Positions 16,183 to 32,216 of a DNA stretch of 37,922 bases are shown piece by piece. Under the pieces are notes generated by a model. That model searched no databases, was not told the DNA's origin, and saw only the letters and a list, made by a program, of their open reading frames with translations. Position numbers and translations under genes: made by a program. The first letter of the stretch is position 1, and each line of letters starts with the position of its first letter. Source of the DNA: Flavobacteriaceae bacterium (GTDB lineage Bacteria; Bacteroidota; Bacteroidia; Flavobacteriales; Flavobacteriaceae); NCBI GenBank assembly GCA_016649745.1, contig JAENXD010000003.1, forward strand, positions 1 through 37,922. The letters are read 5' to 3'.

Positions 16183-17148
16183 ATGAAATTTCTGACCTTA
16201 ATTTTTAGACTCATCGTTTCTTTTACCTTTATCTTTTCAGGCTTTGTAAAATTGGTGGATCCTTTGGGGTCTTCCTATAAATTTCAGGAATATTTTAGTG
16301 CGGATGTCTTAAATCTTGAATTTTTAATCCCTTATGCTTTGCCTTTTTCCATTTTCTTAATTATGGCAGAATTGATGCTGGGTGTGATGTTATTGTTGGG
16401 TTATTTGCCAAAGTTCACGGTGTGGAGTTTGTTTTTTATGATACTTATATTCTTGTTTTTAACTTGGTATTCCGCATATTTTGATAAAGTGCTCGATTGC
16501 GGTTGTTTTGGAGACGCAGTCAAATTGTCGCCTTGGGAAACATTTTATAAAAACGTGGCCTTGTTATTTTTTATTTTATTATTGCTTTTTACAACAAAAT
16601 ATATTCGTCCGTTGATACATCTTACTTTTGTAAAATGGACAACCTTTTTATCTTTTATCGCTTTTCTTTATATTTCCTATTACGTATTGGTGCACTTGCC
16701 AATCATTGATTTTAGACCTTATGCCATTGGTAAAAATATTCCTGATGGAATGAAAGCTATAGGTGCCGAATTACCACCGATTCACGATTTTTATTTAGAG
16801 AGCAGTGAGGGACTAAATGTAACGGATGAGGTGTTGAAAGAAGATAAAATGATGCTTATCATTGCTCATAATATAGATAATAGCGACAGGCAAGGGTTTT
16901 CAAAAATAAAGAATGTAACCGACAAAGCTTTAAAATTTGGTTATAAAGTTTATTTATTATCTGCTTCTTTAGAAGATGATTTTATCGACATTAAAGACGA
17001 ATTTGATTTGAACTTCGATATGTTGTTTTGCGACGAAACCACTTTAAAAACAATCATTAGGGCTAATCCAGGAATTGTGATGCTTAATAAAGGTATAGTA
17101 ACCGGTAAATGGAATTGGGTTGATGCTGAAGAGGTGTTTGACAAATAA
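16183..17148 (+). CDS. DoxX/MauE-like membrane protein with thioredoxin-like C-terminal region (BT_3928 type)
   Basis: 321 residues. Four to five helices in the first about 190 residues: FRLIVSFTFIFSGFVKLVDP is the DoxX-type opening, and LDCGCFGDAVKLSPWETF is a conserved Cys pair next to a helix as in MauE-like proteins. The C-terminal, non-membrane part (about 190-321: MMLIIAHNID, GYKVYLLSAS, FDMLFCDETTLKTIIRANPG) looks like a thioredoxin-fold domain without a CxxC. A redox role at the membrane is an inference. In many relatives tpiA follows this gene; here it does not, and the next genes are the ammonium transport operons. A hairpin terminator follows 54 bp after the stop. Confidence 0.82.
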   Translation: MKFLTLIFRLIVSFTFIFSGFVKLVDPLGSSYKFQEYFSADVLNLEFLIPYALPFSIFLIMAELMLGVMLLLGYLPKFTVWSLFFMILIFLFLTWYSAYFDKVLDCGCFGDAVKLSPWETFYKNVALLFFILLLLFTTKYIRPLIHLTFVKWTTFLSFIAFLYISYYVLVHLPIIDFRPYAIGKNIPDGMKAIGAELPPIHDFYLESSEGLNVTDEVLKEDKMMLIIAHNIDNSDRQGFSKIKNVTDKALKFGYKVYLLSASLEDDFIDIKDEFDLNFDMLFCDETTLKTIIRANPGIVMLNKGIVTGKWNWVDAEEVFDK

Positions 17149-17202
17149 GAACTAAAATTAAAGTAATAGCGAATAGCTTCCAACTTTTAACTTTCAAATT
17201 AT

Positions 17203-17248
17203 AAAAAACAACTAAAGACTTTTTTTGAGTTTTTAAGTTGTTTTTTTT
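17203..17248 (+). terminator. Rho-independent terminator after the DoxX gene
   Basis: Arms AAAAAACAACT (17203-17213) and AGTTGTTTTTT (17236-17246) with a partly paired interior, then T to 17248. Confidence 0.75.
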
Positions 17249-17346
17249 AGTTTATATTCTTCAAAGAGTATTTAAGGGTAATTTTTTTTGACTCTTTTTG
17301 CTTGAAATTACCTCCCTTTTTATTTTAAAAATTATTATTAGCGAAG

Positions 17347-17372
17347 TTACCCCCTAAAATTTTGGGGCGTAA
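17347..17372. promoter_or_regulatory. Operator-like palindrome A upstream of glnK1
   Basis: Near-perfect 26-bp palindrome with outer TTAC/GTAA, CCCC/GGGG arms and an AAAATTTT centre. Centre 17359.5, about 52 bp from site B. Confidence 0.65.
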
Positions 17373-17401
17373 TGCCATATTTTCTTCATTTAAAAACATT
17401 G

Positions 17402-17420
17402 ACCCCTAAAAATTTAGGGT
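17402..17420. promoter_or_regulatory. Operator-like palindrome B upstream of glnK1
   Basis: ACCCCTAAAAATTTAGGGT; centre 17411, 53 bp from site C. Confidence 0.65.
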
Positions 17421-17454
17421 AAAATTCATAAAAATTAATATAAAAATTTTAACA

Positions 17455-17473
17455 ACCTATAAAAAAATAGGGT
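17455..17473. promoter_or_regulatory. Operator-like palindrome C upstream of glnK1
   Basis: Degenerate member with arms ACCTAT and ATAGGGT around an A-run; centre 17464, 53 bp from site D. Confidence 0.55.
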
Positions 17474-17505
17474 ATAATTAAAAATATTCGTAAAAATGAT
17501 AGTCA

Positions 17506-17528
17506 TACCCCTATAAAATTTGGGGGTA
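17506..17528. promoter_or_regulatory. Operator-like palindrome D over the glnK1 -33 region
   Basis: Arms TACCCC and GGGGGTA around an A/T centre; contains TTTG (17519-17522) at the right place for a -33 box. Inner ACCCC...GGGGT core (17507-17527) ends 15 bp before the -7 box, the same gap as at site E. Confidence 0.7.
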
Positions 17529-17542
17529 ATGTAGAATATATT

Positions 17543-17550
17543 TATTTTTG
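17543..17550 (+). promoter_or_regulatory. glnK1-amtB1 promoter, -7 element
   Basis: TATTTTTG followed by ACCCGAAATCAA; full TAnnTTTG match, 20 bp after the TTTG at 17519-17522. The same TATTTTTGAC and CGAAATCAA stretch precedes glnK2. Leader about 25 nt. Confidence 0.75.
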
Positions 17551-17579
17551 ACCCGAAATCAACTATAAAAATCATTTAT

Positions 17580-17918
17580 ATGAAGAAAATTGAAACAATT
17601 ATCAGAAAGTCAAAATTTGATGAAGTAAAGGAAGCTCTGCATCAAATTGAAGTCAACTTTTTTAGTTACTGGGATGTAACCGGAGTTGGCAATGAAAAGG
17701 AAGGGCATGTTTATCGAGGTGTAAGTTATAGTACTTCAGATATACAGCGCAGATTTTTGTCAATTGTTGTTTCTGATCCATTTTTGGAAAGAACTGTAGC
17801 GGCAATCTTAAAAGCTGCTTTTACCGGAACTGTTGGGGATGGTAAAATATTTGTCTCGGAAGTAGAAGAGGCATATAGAATAAGAACAAAGGAAAGAGGG
17901 TACGACGCTCTAAAATAA
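17580..17918 (+). CDS. glnK: P-II family nitrogen regulator GlnK, copy 1
   Basis: 112 residues. P-II core is clear: MKKIETIIRKSKFDEVKEAL opening, T-loop YRGVSY (Y50 equivalent to the E. coli uridylylated Y51), B-loop GDGKIFV and C-terminal RIRTKERG. Two points differ from proteobacterial GlnB: the T-loop is one residue shorter, and GNEKEGH replaces GRQKGH, so the Q39 that helps bind 2-oxoglutarate is Glu here; the B-loop Lys before GDG is replaced (TGTVGDG). It should sense energy/nitrogen status and gate the ammonium channel encoded 28 bp downstream. Upstream lies a four-site operator array. About 85% alike copy 2 by eye. Confidence 0.95.
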   Translation: MKKIETIIRKSKFDEVKEALHQIEVNFFSYWDVTGVGNEKEGHVYRGVSYSTSDIQRRFLSIVVSDPFLERTVAAILKAAFTGTVGDGKIFVSEVEEAYRIRTKERGYDALK

Positions 17919-17946: not shown

Positions 17947-19143
17947 ATGGATACGAACGCTGTATTAGACTTAATGTGGATTGTGGTCTGCGGAATTTTA
18001 GTGTTTTTTATGCAAGCCGGATTTACGCTTGTTGAAACTGGGTTTACCCGATCAAAAAACACAGGAAATATAATAATGAAAAATTTAATGGACTTATGTA
18101 TCGGGAGCTTAGGTTTTTGGGCTATAGGTTATACTATAATGTATGGGGATTCAATTGAATCATTTATTGGAAATCCAACGCTGTTCTTTGATGATGCTGA
18201 GAATATGCACAATTTATTTTTTCAAACTGTTTTTGCTGCTACTGCTGCTACGATTGTTTCTGGAGCCATAGCTGAAAGAACGAAATTCACAACGTATCTT
18301 ATCTTTTCTTTAATAATGACCGTTGTGATTTACCCTATCTCAGGTCATTGGGTTTGGCAAGGTGATGGTTGGCTAACAGACCTTGGTTTTATTGATTTTG
18401 CAGGTTCAACGGTTGTGCATTCAGTGGGTGGTTGGGCTGCTTTAATGGCTGCGTTATTGGTCGGGCCAAGACTTGGGAAATATACAAACGGAAAATCTAA
18501 TGCAATTCCGGGGCATAACTTACTAATTGGCGCTTTAGGTATATTCATTTTGTGGTTAGGTTGGTTTGGTTTTAATGCAGGTTCTCAGTTAGCAATCTCT
18601 GGAGATAATGCCAATGCTGTTGCGGGCATTGTAATAACTACGAACCTTGCCGCTGCGGCAGCCGCATTAACAGCAATGTTTGTGTCTTGGGGCTTATACG
18701 GAAAACCTGATATTTCAATGACTTTAAACGGTGCTTTAGCTGGATTGGTTGCAATAACTGCCGGTTGTGCAGCTGTTAGTCCAATGGGGGCCACTATAAT
18801 TGGAATTATTGCAGGAGTTGTTATAGTATTTTCTATTGAATTTATAGATAAAAAACTGAAAATTGACGATCCGGTTGGGGCTGTTTCGGTACATGGTGTA
18901 TGTGGTGCTCTGGGGACTTTATTGGTAGGTGTATTTGCTACAGACGGTGGTTTAATGTACGGTGGAGGTTTTCATCAACTTGGTGTGCAGGCAATAGGTG
19001 TTTTGGCTATTGGAGCATGGGCAATTGCAACTTCATTTATCGTTTTATACACCTTGAAGAAAACAATAGGATTAAGAGTTTCCAAAGAAGAAGAAGTAGA
19101 CGGTTTAGATATCCATGAGCATAAAACAAATGTTTACAACTAA
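17947..19143 (+). CDS. amtB: Ammonium transporter AmtB, copy 1
   Basis: 398 residues with about eleven membrane helices. Amt hallmarks: GFTLVETGFTRSKNTGNI near the start, FAGSTVVHSVGGWAAL with pore His158, PGHNLLIGALGIFILWLGW, and VSVHGVCGALGTLL with the second pore His316 (twin-His). The C-terminal tail (LRVSKEEEVDGLDIHEH) contains the segment that in Amt proteins couples subunits and meets P-II. The trimeric channel moves ammonium across the inner membrane. No long signal peptide, unlike E. coli AmtB. It is cotranscribed with glnK1 and probably with the porin-like gene 65 bp downstream. Confidence 0.96.
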   Translation: MDTNAVLDLMWIVVCGILVFFMQAGFTLVETGFTRSKNTGNIIMKNLMDLCIGSLGFWAIGYTIMYGDSIESFIGNPTLFFDDAENMHNLFFQTVFAATAATIVSGAIAERTKFTTYLIFSLIMTVVIYPISGHWVWQGDGWLTDLGFIDFAGSTVVHSVGGWAALMAALLVGPRLGKYTNGKSNAIPGHNLLIGALGIFILWLGWFGFNAGSQLAISGDNANAVAGIVITTNLAAAAAALTAMFVSWGLYGKPDISMTLNGALAGLVAITAGCAAVSPMGATIIGIIAGVVIVFSIEFIDKKLKIDDPVGAVSVHGVCGALGTLLVGVFATDGGLMYGGGFHQLGVQAIGVLAIGAWAIATSFIVLYTLKKTIGLRVSKEEEVDGLDIHEHKTNVYN

Positions 19144-19208: not shown

Positions 19209-19919
19209 ATGAAAACAATTAAAGGAACAGTTCTACTATTAATAGCGGTACTCTCATTAAGTACGATAAACGCACAAGAAGAAGAAAAATCAAAGGCCAA
19301 ATTAGATTTAGGTCTTGATGTTCAATCTCGTTATATCTGGAGAGGTATACAATTAGGAGGTAACAGTGCGAGTGCGCAACCATGGGTGGAACTCTCGTCA
19401 GGTGGATTTGCAATTGGCGCTTGGGGGGCTTATAATTTGGGAGGTTTAGGTGAAGGTAATGAAGCGGATTTATATATGTCTTATGCATTTAGTGATTCTT
19501 TTTCTGTTGGTGTAACAGATTATTTCTTCCCTGGTGAAGGGAGTGGTGGTTATTTCCCTTATAAAGATGGTCATGTGTTTGAGGCGATGCTTTCATACTC
19601 TGGTCCAATTGGCATTACGGTAGCCACTAATTTTGCAGGAGCGATTGAAGATGAGAATGGAAACAATGCATATTCTACTTATGTTGAAGCAAGTTATGAA
19701 ACTGCAATAGGAGGTACGCCTCTTACTTTAGCTGTGGGTGGTGTTTTAGGTGATGATAATGGATATTACTTTACCGATGGTTCAGGTTTAATCAATGTGA
19801 CGGTCGGTACATCAAAAGAAATCAAATTTTCAGACTCATTTAGTCTTCCGGTAAATGCAGCAATCACTTTAAATCCGGATTCTGAAGACATCTTCTTAAC
19901 ATTTGGTTTCTCTTTATAA
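19209..19919 (+). CDS. Outer-membrane porin-like protein (TorF/Gcw_chp type)
   Basis: 236 residues with a Sec signal peptide (MKTIKGTVLLLIAVLSLSTI, cleavage near NAQ-EE). The mature protein opens LDLGLDVQSRYIWRGIQLGG; the SRYIWRG motif is the signature of the Gcw_chp/'TorF family putative porin' group. It then alternates strands and Gly/Asn turns to a terminal Leu-Phe-type end (FLTFGFSL). Placement in the glnK1-amtB1 operon, before a strong terminator, suggests it admits ammonium or small amines through the outer membrane under nitrogen limitation (inference). Copy 2 of glnK-amtB has no such partner. Confidence 0.78.
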   Translation: MKTIKGTVLLLIAVLSLSTINAQEEEKSKAKLDLGLDVQSRYIWRGIQLGGNSASAQPWVELSSGGFAIGAWGAYNLGGLGEGNEADLYMSYAFSDSFSVGVTDYFFPGEGSGGYFPYKDGHVFEAMLSYSGPIGITVATNFAGAIEDENGNNAYSTYVEASYETAIGGTPLTLAVGGVLGDDNGYYFTDGSGLINVTVGTSKEIKFSDSFSLPVNAAITLNPDSEDIFLTFGFSL

Positions 19920-19958: not shown

Positions 19959-19999
19959 CCTGTCCAGAAGTGTGTGCTTTATCTGGACAGGTTTTTTTT
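19959..19999 (+). terminator. Rho-independent terminator of the glnK1-amtB1-porin operon
   Basis: Perfect 10-bp arms CCTGTCCAGA (19959-19968) and TCTGGACAGG (19982-19991), then eight T. Confidence 0.93.
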
Positions 20000-20017
20000 G
20001 TTAAATATACGTGTTGC

Positions 20018-20037
20018 ATCTATATATTAATTAGGGT
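20018..20037. promoter_or_regulatory. Degenerate operator-like site F upstream of glnK2
   Basis: Arms ATCTAT and TTAGGGT; lies 33 bp before site E, exactly the C-D gap of the first array, and like site C is followed by ATAA. Confidence 0.45.
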
Positions 20038-20070
20038 ATAAATCATTAAATGTTATAAAATAATACTTTC

Positions 20071-20091
20071 ACCCCCTAAAAATTAGGAGGT
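20071..20091. promoter_or_regulatory. Operator-like palindrome E at the glnK2 promoter
   Basis: Arms ACCCCCTAA and TTAGGAGGT around AAA; ends 15 bp before the -7 box, the same gap as site D in the first operon. Confidence 0.68.
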
Positions 20092-20106
20092 ATAAAAAAT
20101 AATATA

Positions 20107-20114
20107 TATTTTTG
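20107..20114 (+). promoter_or_regulatory. glnK2-amtB2 promoter, -7 element
   Basis: TATTTTTG followed by ACTCGAAATCAA; full consensus match and homologous to the glnK1 promoter. The TTG at 20112, start of the longest open frame, is part of this box. Confidence 0.75.
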
Positions 20115-20144: not shown

Positions 20145-20483
20145 ATGAAGAAAATTGAAGCTATTATCAGAAAGTCTAAATTTGATGATGTCAAGGATGC
20201 CTTGCATCAAATTGATGTCAACTTTTTTAGTTACTGGGATGTTACTGGGGTAGGAAATGAAAAAGAGGGACATGTATACCGAGGCGTCAGTTATAATACT
20301 TCAGATATTCAACGACGGTTTTTATCAATAGTAGTTTCAGACCCTTTTTTGGACAGGACACTGGAAGCGATTTTAAAAACAGCTTTTACTGGAATTGTTG
20401 GAGACGGTAAAATATTTGTTTCGGACATAGAGGAAGCCTATAGGATAAGAACAAAAGAAAAAGGATCAGACTCCTTAAAATAA
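20145..20483 (+). CDS. glnK: P-II family nitrogen regulator GlnK, copy 2
   Basis: 112 residues, starting at the ATG that aligns with copy 1. The open frame reaches a TTG at 20112, but that codon is inside the -7 box and the extra 11 residues (MTRNQIQNHFI) are leader sequence. T-loop (GNEKEGHVYRGVSY) is identical to copy 1, including Glu in place of Q39 and the retained Y50; the B-loop is TGIVGDGKIFV. Differences lie mainly in surface residues (DDVKDAL, DRTLEAILKTAF, EKGSDSLK). It is 24 bp from amtB2 and presumably gates that channel; the two P-II copies could form mixed trimers (inference). Confidence 0.95.
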   Translation: MKKIEAIIRKSKFDDVKDALHQIDVNFFSYWDVTGVGNEKEGHVYRGVSYNTSDIQRRFLSIVVSDPFLDRTLEAILKTAFTGIVGDGKIFVSDIEEAYRIRTKEKGSDSLK

Positions 20484-20507: not shown

Positions 20508-21749
20508 ATGGACAACACGTTATTTACGGTGAACAATGTATGGATGATGATTTGCACCGCATTGGTTTTTTTAATGCATTTGGGATTTTCATTGCTAGAA
20601 ATTGGATTAACACGACAAAAAAACACGATAAATATTTTATTTAAAAACGTATTTATACTTTCCATTGGTTTGGTATTGTATGCTTTGGTTGGATTTAATT
20701 TAATGTATCCGGGCTCATTTATATATGGTATTTTGCCTGATCATTTTTTTAATTTATTCGGACTTTCATTGCCGGAAAATGGTTTGACCGCGGAATATGC
20801 ACATGGCAGTTATACTTATTGGACCGATTTTCTATTTCAGGGAATGTTTGCGGCAACTGCGGCAACCATAGTTTCAGGAGCCGTTGCGGAGCGGATAAAA
20901 TTAGGTTCCTTCATGATTTTCACCATCATTTACGTTGGCATTGTTTACCCAATAACAGGGTCTTGGAAATGGGGGACAGGTTGGTTAGATGGACTTGGAT
21001 TTTATGATTTTGCCGGTTCAACGCTAGTGCATTCGGTTGGTGGTTGGGCCGCTTTGGTAGCTGTTTGGCTATTGGGTGCCAGAATAGGTAAATTTAAAAA
21101 AGATGGTTCAATTGGCGCAATTCCCGGCCATAATATTCCCTTGGCAACAACTGGGGTGTTTATATTATGGATAGGTTGGTTTGGATTTAATGGTGGCTCA
21201 GTGCTTTCTGCTGATCCAGGTAAAACTTCTTTGGTTTTGGTGACTACCTGTTTGGCTGCGGCTTCTGGAGGATTAGCTGCTTTTTTAGTTTCTTTATTTA
21301 GATACAAGCAATATGATTTATCTATGTTTTTAAATGGCGTGCTTGGTGGTTTGGTTGGAATTACGGCCGGCGCTGATATTATGAGTGTATCTGATGCAAT
21401 TCTTATTGGATTTATTGCCGGAATTTTAATTGTTTTAGGCGTTGGGTTTATTGACAGATTAAAACTGGATGATCCCGTGGGGGCAATTGCAGTTCATTTA
21501 ATATGCGGAATTTGGGGAACTTTGGCCGTAGGCATTTTTGGTGAACTGGCAGGTTGGGATCAATTTGGCCATCAGATAATAGGTGTTGTTTCAATAGGCG
21601 CATTTTGTATGACTTCTGCATTTACAATATTGATGATTCTAAAGAAAACGGTGGGTTTAAGAGTGTCAGAGGTAGAAGAACAGGACGGATTGGATATTCA
21701 TGAACATGGAATGGACGCTTATCCTGATTTTCGTTTAAATCAGCATTAA
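20508..21749 (+). CDS. amtB: Ammonium transporter AmtB, copy 2
   Basis: 413 residues, about eleven helices. Pore His175 lies in FAGSTLVHSVGGW and His330 in AIAVHLICGIWG, so both twin-His residues are kept. It differs well from copy 1: a 20-residue longer periplasmic loop (PDHFFNLFGLSLPENGLTAE, about 77-97), VHLICG instead of VHGVCG, and a longer C-tail ending DFRLNQH. The tail motif GLRVSEVEEQDGLDIHEH matches copy 1. The degree of divergence from copy 1 looks greater than between the two P-II genes, suggesting an old duplication with different transport properties (inference). A terminator follows at 21770. Confidence 0.96.
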   Translation: MDNTLFTVNNVWMMICTALVFLMHLGFSLLEIGLTRQKNTINILFKNVFILSIGLVLYALVGFNLMYPGSFIYGILPDHFFNLFGLSLPENGLTAEYAHGSYTYWTDFLFQGMFAATAATIVSGAVAERIKLGSFMIFTIIYVGIVYPITGSWKWGTGWLDGLGFYDFAGSTLVHSVGGWAALVAVWLLGARIGKFKKDGSIGAIPGHNIPLATTGVFILWIGWFGFNGGSVLSADPGKTSLVLVTTCLAAASGGLAAFLVSLFRYKQYDLSMFLNGVLGGLVGITAGADIMSVSDAILIGFIAGILIVLGVGFIDRLKLDDPVGAIAVHLICGIWGTLAVGIFGELAGWDQFGHQIIGVVSIGAFCMTSAFTILMILKKTVGLRVSEVEEQDGLDIHEHGMDAYPDFRLNQH

Positions 21750-32134: not shown

Positions 32135-32216
32135 TATCATTCCATTTAAACCGTTAAAACGGTTTGGTGTTTCAAAATCTAATTCCCATAGCCCACGGTT
32201 TAAACCGTGGGCTATG
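32135..32216. repeat. REP-like element, left copy
   Basis: Two palindromes: AAACCG/CGGTTT at 32148-32165 and a perfect 28-bp palindrome at 32188-32215 (arms ATAGCCCACGGTTT and its complement). Same orientation as the right copy at 32731-32815; together they flank the RAYT gene. Confidence 0.85.

Follow-up and report, generated by a model that had tools for sequence, protein, structure and literature searches.

A predicted nitrogen-assimilation operator array of palindromes spaced about 53 bp apart upstream of glnK-amtB in Flavobacteriaceae

In the 37,922-nucleotide stretch of Flavobacteriaceae DNA analysed here (GenBank assembly GCA_016649745.1, contig JAENXD010000003.1; hereafter the window), the genes glnK1 (17580-17918, + strand; P-II family protein, PF00543) and amtB1 (17947-19143, + strand; ammonium transporter, PF00909 and TIGR00836) are preceded by a series of palindromes, and the question is what these palindromes do. 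They occupy the intergenic region 5' of glnK1 (17149-17579; the upstream gene ends at 17148), where four imperfect palindromes have their centres at 17359, 17411, 17464 and 17517. The original prediction described four palindromes of the form ACCCC-(A/T)-GGGGT with spacings of 51.5, 53 and 53 bp; they lie where it placed them, with measured centre-to-centre spacings of 52, 53 and 53 bp. Numbered from the most distal, and with no strand assigned, site 1 covers 17348-17370 (centre at a predicted -196), site 2 covers 17400-17422 (-144), site 3 covers 17453-17475 (-91) and the proximal site 4 covers 17506-17528 (-38). Sites 1, 2 and 4 have CCCC/GGG(G) arms, and site 3, ACCTATAAAAAAATAGGGT, is the weakest.

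A symmetric 23-bp matrix of the site has CC at -8/-7 and GG at +7/+8 (97-99%), further C/G at -6/+6 (86%), and a centre of A and T. Because circularity had to be avoided, the matrix was retrained on sites from other genera (142 sites from the named stretches L144-L223, with L176, L192, L196 and L214 left out). This independent matrix gave 26.0 bits for site 4, 24.2 for site 2, 21.9 for site 1 and 15.2 for site 3, and 17.2 bits for a further site before glnK2. These five are the top-scoring places in the window, and the sixth reaches only 5.1 bits over the 37.9 kb. Across 300 first-order Markov resamplings of the window, the best score averaged 8.8 bits and never exceeded 21.4, with scores above 15 arising 0.05 times per resampling. 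When the 431-bp intergenic sequence was resampled 20,000 times, 0.025% of the runs attained the score of site 4 and 1.2% that of site 3.

The proximal site stands at a fixed distance from a promoter element. A TAnnTTTG -7 box, TATTTTTG, lies at 17543-17550 (+ strand), and the box of F. psychrophilum promoters occupies -12 to -5 according to the available part of PMC9723704, which predicts a transcription start at 17555. With the box so placed, site 4 is centred at -38 and covers the -33 region, as had been foreseen. An A-tract, AAAAAT, lies in the linker between sites 3 and 4 (17492-17497, + strand), 25 bp before the proximal centre. We then compared this arrangement with 79 named arrays, 77 of them with full flanks (a figure that includes two L192 and three L214 entries from longer arrays). 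In 42 of the 77 promoters an exact TAnnTTTG begins 24-27 bp downstream of the proximal centre, against none of the 77 in an upstream control window of equal size (45 bp). By target, the box was found at this place in 26 of 41 glnK, 14 of 25 porin and 2 of 4 type III glutamine synthetase (GSIII) promoters, and in none of six ald promoters or the single gltB promoter. Given this fixed distance and the position of the F. psychrophilum box, the proximal centre falls near -38 and the next near -91. AAAAAT 24-26 bp before the proximal centre occurs 24 times over 41 glnK arrays and 18 times over 25 porin arrays. Of the 77 promoters, only 5 have an exact TTTG at the -33 position; TTNG is found in the right half of the proximal glnK site in 20 of 41 cases and in the left half in 6 of 41, an excess that is possibly the trace of a -33 box. 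Among 13 centres in 12 loci, mostly outside the family, the box lies at 26-28 bp in four (L243, L257, L187 and L145; it starts at 27-28 bp in the first two) but not in the other nine. Sites near or beyond the expected start occur in the ald promoters and in L038 and L058. CCCC-rich half-sites were also seen about 45-50 bp downstream of the proximal site in ald promoters (L149, L173, L183 and L200), and suggest a third in-register site near the start codon.

The same motif, absent from the original prediction, precedes the second pair of such genes in the window, glnK2 (20145-20483, + strand; 87% identical to glnK1) and amtB2 (20508-21749, + strand; ammonium transporter, PF00909). One palindromic site lies at 20070-20092 (no strand assigned; centre about 20081-20082), and a degenerate site about 53 bp upstream (20017-20039, likewise without strand) retains only its right half, TTAGGGTA, which is too weak for the matrix (about -0.5); the pair was found by a two-site profile (E 6.9e-8). 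The -7 box of this promoter (TAnnTTTG, 20107-20114, + strand) stands +26 from the proximal centre, exactly as before glnK1, and both window promoters thus carry the box of Flavobacteriaceae sigma-A promoters at the expected place. Between amtB1 and glnK2 lies a putative TorF-like porin gene (19209-19919) that scores below the NCBIfam cut-off (32 versus 47 bits). In other genera, too, porin-like genes are found within the glnK operon or next to it, and an outer-membrane channel may therefore belong to the ammonium system. Two further repeats in the window deserve mention: a perfect 10-bp inverted repeat followed by a T run at 19959-19991, probably the terminator of the porin gene, and the perfect palindrome CCCACGGTTTAAACCGTGGG at 32192-32211, which is the most symmetric place in the window.

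Conservation was examined upstream of glnK. A GlnK search returned a match in 78 of 149 genomes, and 63 upstream regions were scored, namely the 30 best loci of the same genus (window included) and 33 beyond it; in these genus and glnK counts the matrix was trained on sequences that it then scored, and the L144-L223 matrix serves as the independent test. The motif is present upstream of glnK in all 30 same-genus loci. The proximal site lies 61.5-65.5 bp before the start codon in 29 of them (the exception is L013) and a second site 115-118.5 bp before it in 27; 11 of the 30 have all four sites, and in five, sites 1, 3 and 4 are in register, 103-104 bp apart where site 2 is sub-threshold. Over the 63 regions the spacings were 51 (6 cases), 52 (11), 53 (42), 54 (5), 103 (2), 104 (3) and 114 bp (1). 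Beyond the genus, 16 of the 33 regions contain at least one site. In five of the other 17, glnK is preceded by a porin-like gene, and a pair with 53-bp spacing lies upstream of that gene (L051, L059, L062, L066 and L067); two have a single site in the same position (L053 and L060), one has a weak site within another gene (L070), and nine have no site within the stretch fetched; in one of these nine, G054, an array lies further upstream, between a porin gene and gltB (L104). Of the porins, that of L085 is a Pfam BBP2 member; the rest were identified by BLAST against it or by visual inspection. Since the array stands before the porin where the porin precedes glnK, it tends to follow the head of the operon. 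The opposite of what would speak against the prediction was thus found: motif and spacing are kept within the genus, across many genera of its family and in certain other families. A gene for a small membrane protein of about 123 residues, presumably CrcB-like, was also noted near the array or the glnK operon in 47 clustered stretches (L038, L040, L041, L093 and others).

Which genes carry the array was assessed by a scan of genome contigs for pairs of sites at 49-55 bp that took no account of the genes nearby. It returned at least 119 stretches, in which the matrix identified 121 arrays. Among the matches listed, 115 of the 121 have at least one of the following genes no more than 700 bp away: glnK, amtB, porin, gltB, type II or type III glutamine synthetase (GSII, GSIII) or ald. 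The breakdown is glnK with amtB (50), gltB with porin (29), ald (10), porin (9), glnK (5), GSIII (5), gltB (4), GSII with GSIII (2) and amtB (1). The spacings of these 115 listed arrays all fall at 51-54 bp, namely 51 (4), 52 (22), 53 (78) and 54 bp (11). Nine stretches have no assigned array. Three of them are at expected genes (L234 at porin and gltB; L253 at glnK; L257 at a porin-like gene, glnK and amtB), one shows three sites at 53-bp intervals upstream of a porin-like gene (L238), and five lie elsewhere (L147, L189, L191, L201 and L251). Most of the records among the matches listed come from genera of the Flavobacteriaceae. Two that do not are Bacteroides reticulotermitis (L243), with two sites 52 bp apart before the type III glutamine synthetase gene glnN, and a Carboxylicivirga metagenome-assembled genome (L257), with a pair before porin-glnK-amtB; these suggest an origin older than the Flavobacteriaceae.

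Narrower searches gave a similar set of targets. When the spacing of the two-site pattern was fixed at 53 bp, each of the 38 genus genomes gave matches, 227 in the forward direction against 17 for the reversed control (sums over genomes, overlapping registers counted). Among the matches listed, 13 places were read: 10 precede glnN, several of them between glnN and a divergent type II glutamine synthetase gene, one lies at a contig end with the usual glnK surroundings (L081), and two lie inside genes and are probably due to chance (L082 and L083). In each of the 10 genus glnN promoters only one site exceeds 11 bits, and its partner is accordingly weak. We also ran a profile built from the sequences of 36 arrays alone (R1) against 90 genomes under stricter filters; every one of the 90 yields matches if E-values up to 0.5 are admitted, and only low E-values are therefore meaningful. 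Of 36 further places picked among the R1 matches listed, 26 are at glnN, three at gltB, three at ald and two at amtB, and the remaining two are L139 (four sites in glnK surroundings at a contig end) and L138 (no nitrogen gene). Eight of the 36 have a pair of sites above 12 bits and the others a single site. A stringent pattern matched in 10 of 395 phylum genomes, all in the family of the window, and added as targets ald and the divergent gltB-porin region; this pattern finds nothing in the majority of that family's members, and genomes called array-negative are so at the sensitivity of the stringent pattern or R1. In the window's own genome the single-site pattern gave 275 matches against 268 for the reversed control and is thus too noisy for target finding; the seven stretches that it yielded (L031-L037) held no convincing target. 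One of them, L035, has two weak sites 139 bp apart (at 2420 and 2559), about 570 and 710 bp before asnB.

Sites thus precede several ammonium-assimilation genes. The search that had been proposed, for the motif and its periodicity upstream of glnK-amtB, glutamine synthetase genes and gltB in relatives, found both, with spacings of 51-54 bp and a mode of 53. The targets, which extend to glutamine synthetases, glutamate synthase and alanine dehydrogenase, are those expected of a nitrogen regulator and support the proposal of an array for one. Judged from sequence comparison, the palindromes very probably form a nitrogen-assimilation operator array. This array is conserved in Flavobacteriaceae, including many marine members, and present in a few other Bacteroidota, a distribution that suggests a nitrogen control switch common to these bacteria. 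Taken as a whole, the observations are probably best explained by the operator array of a regulator dedicated to ammonium uptake and assimilation that works as an activator. Each palindrome would be occupied by one dimer of a DNA-binding protein. The proximal dimer, near -38, would touch RNA polymerase while covering a -33 region in which TTTG is mostly missing, and the next would sit about five helical turns upstream, near -91, on the same face of the DNA, with the A-tract near -60 as the likely landing place of the polymerase alpha C-terminal domain. Nitrogen limitation would then activate glnK-amtB, the glutamine synthetase genes, gltB and ald, and further in-phase copies (sites 1 and 2 here) may raise occupancy or output. 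Against this operator-array model stand the small share of R1 places with a pair above 12 bits (8 of 36), the single matrix-passing site at glnN promoters of the genus, and the lack of a -7 box in the expected position at the ald and gltB promoters and at 9 of the 13 centres mostly outside the family.

The geometry makes us lean slightly towards an activator over a repressor. An activator with class II and class I polymerase contacts would be expected to show just such a layout, with sites at -38 and near -91 and an A-tract near -60, while the sites near or beyond the expected start (ald, L038 and L058) are not needed by an activator and count against activation. A repressor might act on the same array: with ammonium in excess, the -33 region would be covered by dimers at -38 and further upstream, linked through looping or through contacts across the five-turn spacers, and the genes would stay off until nitrogen limitation released the dimers. 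This reading is possible but doubtful. The proximal site covers -49 to -27, the ald, L038 and L058 sites lie near or downstream of the expected start, and TTNG favours the right half of the proximal glnK site, all of which suits a repressor; yet the position of site relative to box is held to 1-2 bp over glnK, porin and GSIII promoters, which is more than blocking needs, and the scarcity of exact TTTG at -33 (5 of 77) also speaks against it. It is extremely improbable that the palindromes are RNA hairpins, terminators or mobile repeats instead of protein sites. They are inverted repeats and the upstream gene ends at 17148, as this would have it, but they lie upstream of the -7 box, in register with each other and with the box, and almost only at nitrogen genes, and Rfam gave no match over threshold (one sub-threshold match, mir-310, at 21 versus 48 bits, E 0.68).

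To which family might the regulator belong? A Crp/Fnr-family protein at class II and class I positions, as for NtcA and Crp, is a candidate, though not a probable one. The spacing and position of the sites fit tandem Crp-type activation, at least one HTH_Crp_2 protein is encoded in 11 of 11 site genomes tested (exactly one in three small genomes), and GSIII has a Crp-family gene as its neighbour in L111 and in B. reticulotermitis L243. However, usual Crp half-sites are closer together than the half-sites here, the Crp/Fnr groups do not form one ortholog group among 30 of 84 matches, f5 genomes without a detected array carry such proteins too, and the Bacteroides BT4338 motif differs from that of the array in the available parts of PMC6989115 and PMC3878776. 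In L243 (700-1400) the Crp-family gene after glnN is in two frames, perhaps through a sequencing fault. An Lrp/AsnC-family protein that wraps DNA over regularly spaced sites is very unlikely. A/T-rich centres and phased sites are usual in that family, and genes of two kinds, near ald or near glnK, were found in 11 array stretches; but G119 lacks an AsnC-type HTH at E 1e-4 although it carries a pair of sites at 51-bp spacing before GSIII and a single site before amtB, and sites in a genome without a detected protein of this kind disfavour the family. Moreover, the strong-array genomes G011, G019 and G022 contain, among the matches listed, nothing closer than distant relatives of the AsnC-like ortholog near ald, and no site lies upstream of nine Lrp genes examined (one with only 23 bases upstream). 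Over 12 Lrp, Crp and XRE genes (the same short region included), no upstream site exceeds 6 bits. An XRE/S24 gene beside GSIII (L116 and L117) was set aside as a candidate, with matches in array-negative f5 genomes and none at E 1e-7 in the array genomes G012, G038, G048 and G049. GerE (NarL-type) families are present in each array genome tested; one such group, found in G097, G110, G079, G047 and G080 and not in G012, G022, G091 or G119 among 40 of 80 matches, was likewise rejected. HTH_8 proteins occur in 15 of 15 genomes tested and so do not discriminate.

An operator array at nitrogen genes is of a well-known kind; the motif, the rigid 53-bp unit and the lineage appear to be new. We give about an even chance to a wider claim, namely that the array serves an undescribed regulator of nitrogen assimilation, a functional counterpart of NtrC, NtcA and GlnR that is distributed across Bacteroidota and acts through a rigid 53-bp unit tied to RNA polymerase. 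With a rigid unit of five turns tied in this way, the number of in-phase sites, from one to four, could set the output. The array also offers a case of promoter architecture outside the model phyla in which that number varies at an otherwise similar promoter. Bacteroidota are major polymer degraders of sea, soil and gut, and in the available texts the switching of their ammonium uptake and assimilation seems hardly described. With a conserved operator and defined neighbouring genes, the question of nitrogen control becomes directly testable.

How does the array compare with known systems? Pattern scans bear out that the motif is not that of NtcA, TnrA/GlnR or NtrC, each pattern having matches in the window and none in 17347-17579: NtcA (GTA-N8-TAC, 7 in the window), TnrA/GlnR (TGTNA-N7-TNACA with up to one mismatch, 15) and the NtrC enhancer (TGCACC-N5-GGTGCA with up to three mismatches, 7). 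The same holds for the patterns of the sigma-54 promoter (TGGC-N7-TTGC, up to one mismatch; 37 in the window, none in 17347-17579) and the NarL 7-2-7 site (TACYYMT-N2-AKRRGTA, up to two mismatches; 7 and none), and for BT4338 (Cur; TATGTT-N5-AACATA, up to three mismatches; 52 against 53.7 expected, and none). The half-site TACCCCT does, however, look like the NarL heptamer. Archaeal NrpR shares tandem palindromic operators before glnK-amtB, but it is a repressor with a GGAA-N6-TTCC motif. TnrA/GlnR of Bacilli likewise use A/T-centred palindromes at the same kinds of genes, and NtrC with sigma-54 uses tandem palindromes with C and G arms before genes of the glnK-amtB type, whereas the promoters of the window have a sigma-A type -7 box. 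The cyanobacterial NtcA regulon (Crp family) also controls ammonium transport and glutamine synthetase, from a site that the available part of PMC3898017 centres near -41.5 with a -7/-10 box downstream; it differs in that NtcA reads GTA-N8-TAC, whereas here ACCC and GGGT flank about 9-11 A/T positions and tandem sites recur at 53 bp. BT4338 (Cur/Crp) of Bacteroides shares the phylum, a palindromic operator and TAnnTTTG promoters, but its motif, wwwTATGTTnTAnAACATAwww, and its carbohydrate targets differ from the array in the available parts of PMC6989115 and PMC3878776. The literature as available yielded no published description of the motif and no nitrogen regulator of Bacteroidota that is a counterpart to NtrC, NtcA or GlnR, which agrees with the original view that no described regulator of the phylum has this motif. 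In the available main text of a regulatory map of B. thetaiotaomicron, nitrogen, glnK and amtB are absent (PMC12596196). A parallel comes from Prevotella ruminicola, in which amtB, glnK, glnN, gltBD and asnB respond together to ammonium; as far as available, that main text names no promoter, transcription factor or NtrC, and the direction of the response is inconsistent between passages (PMC5552732).
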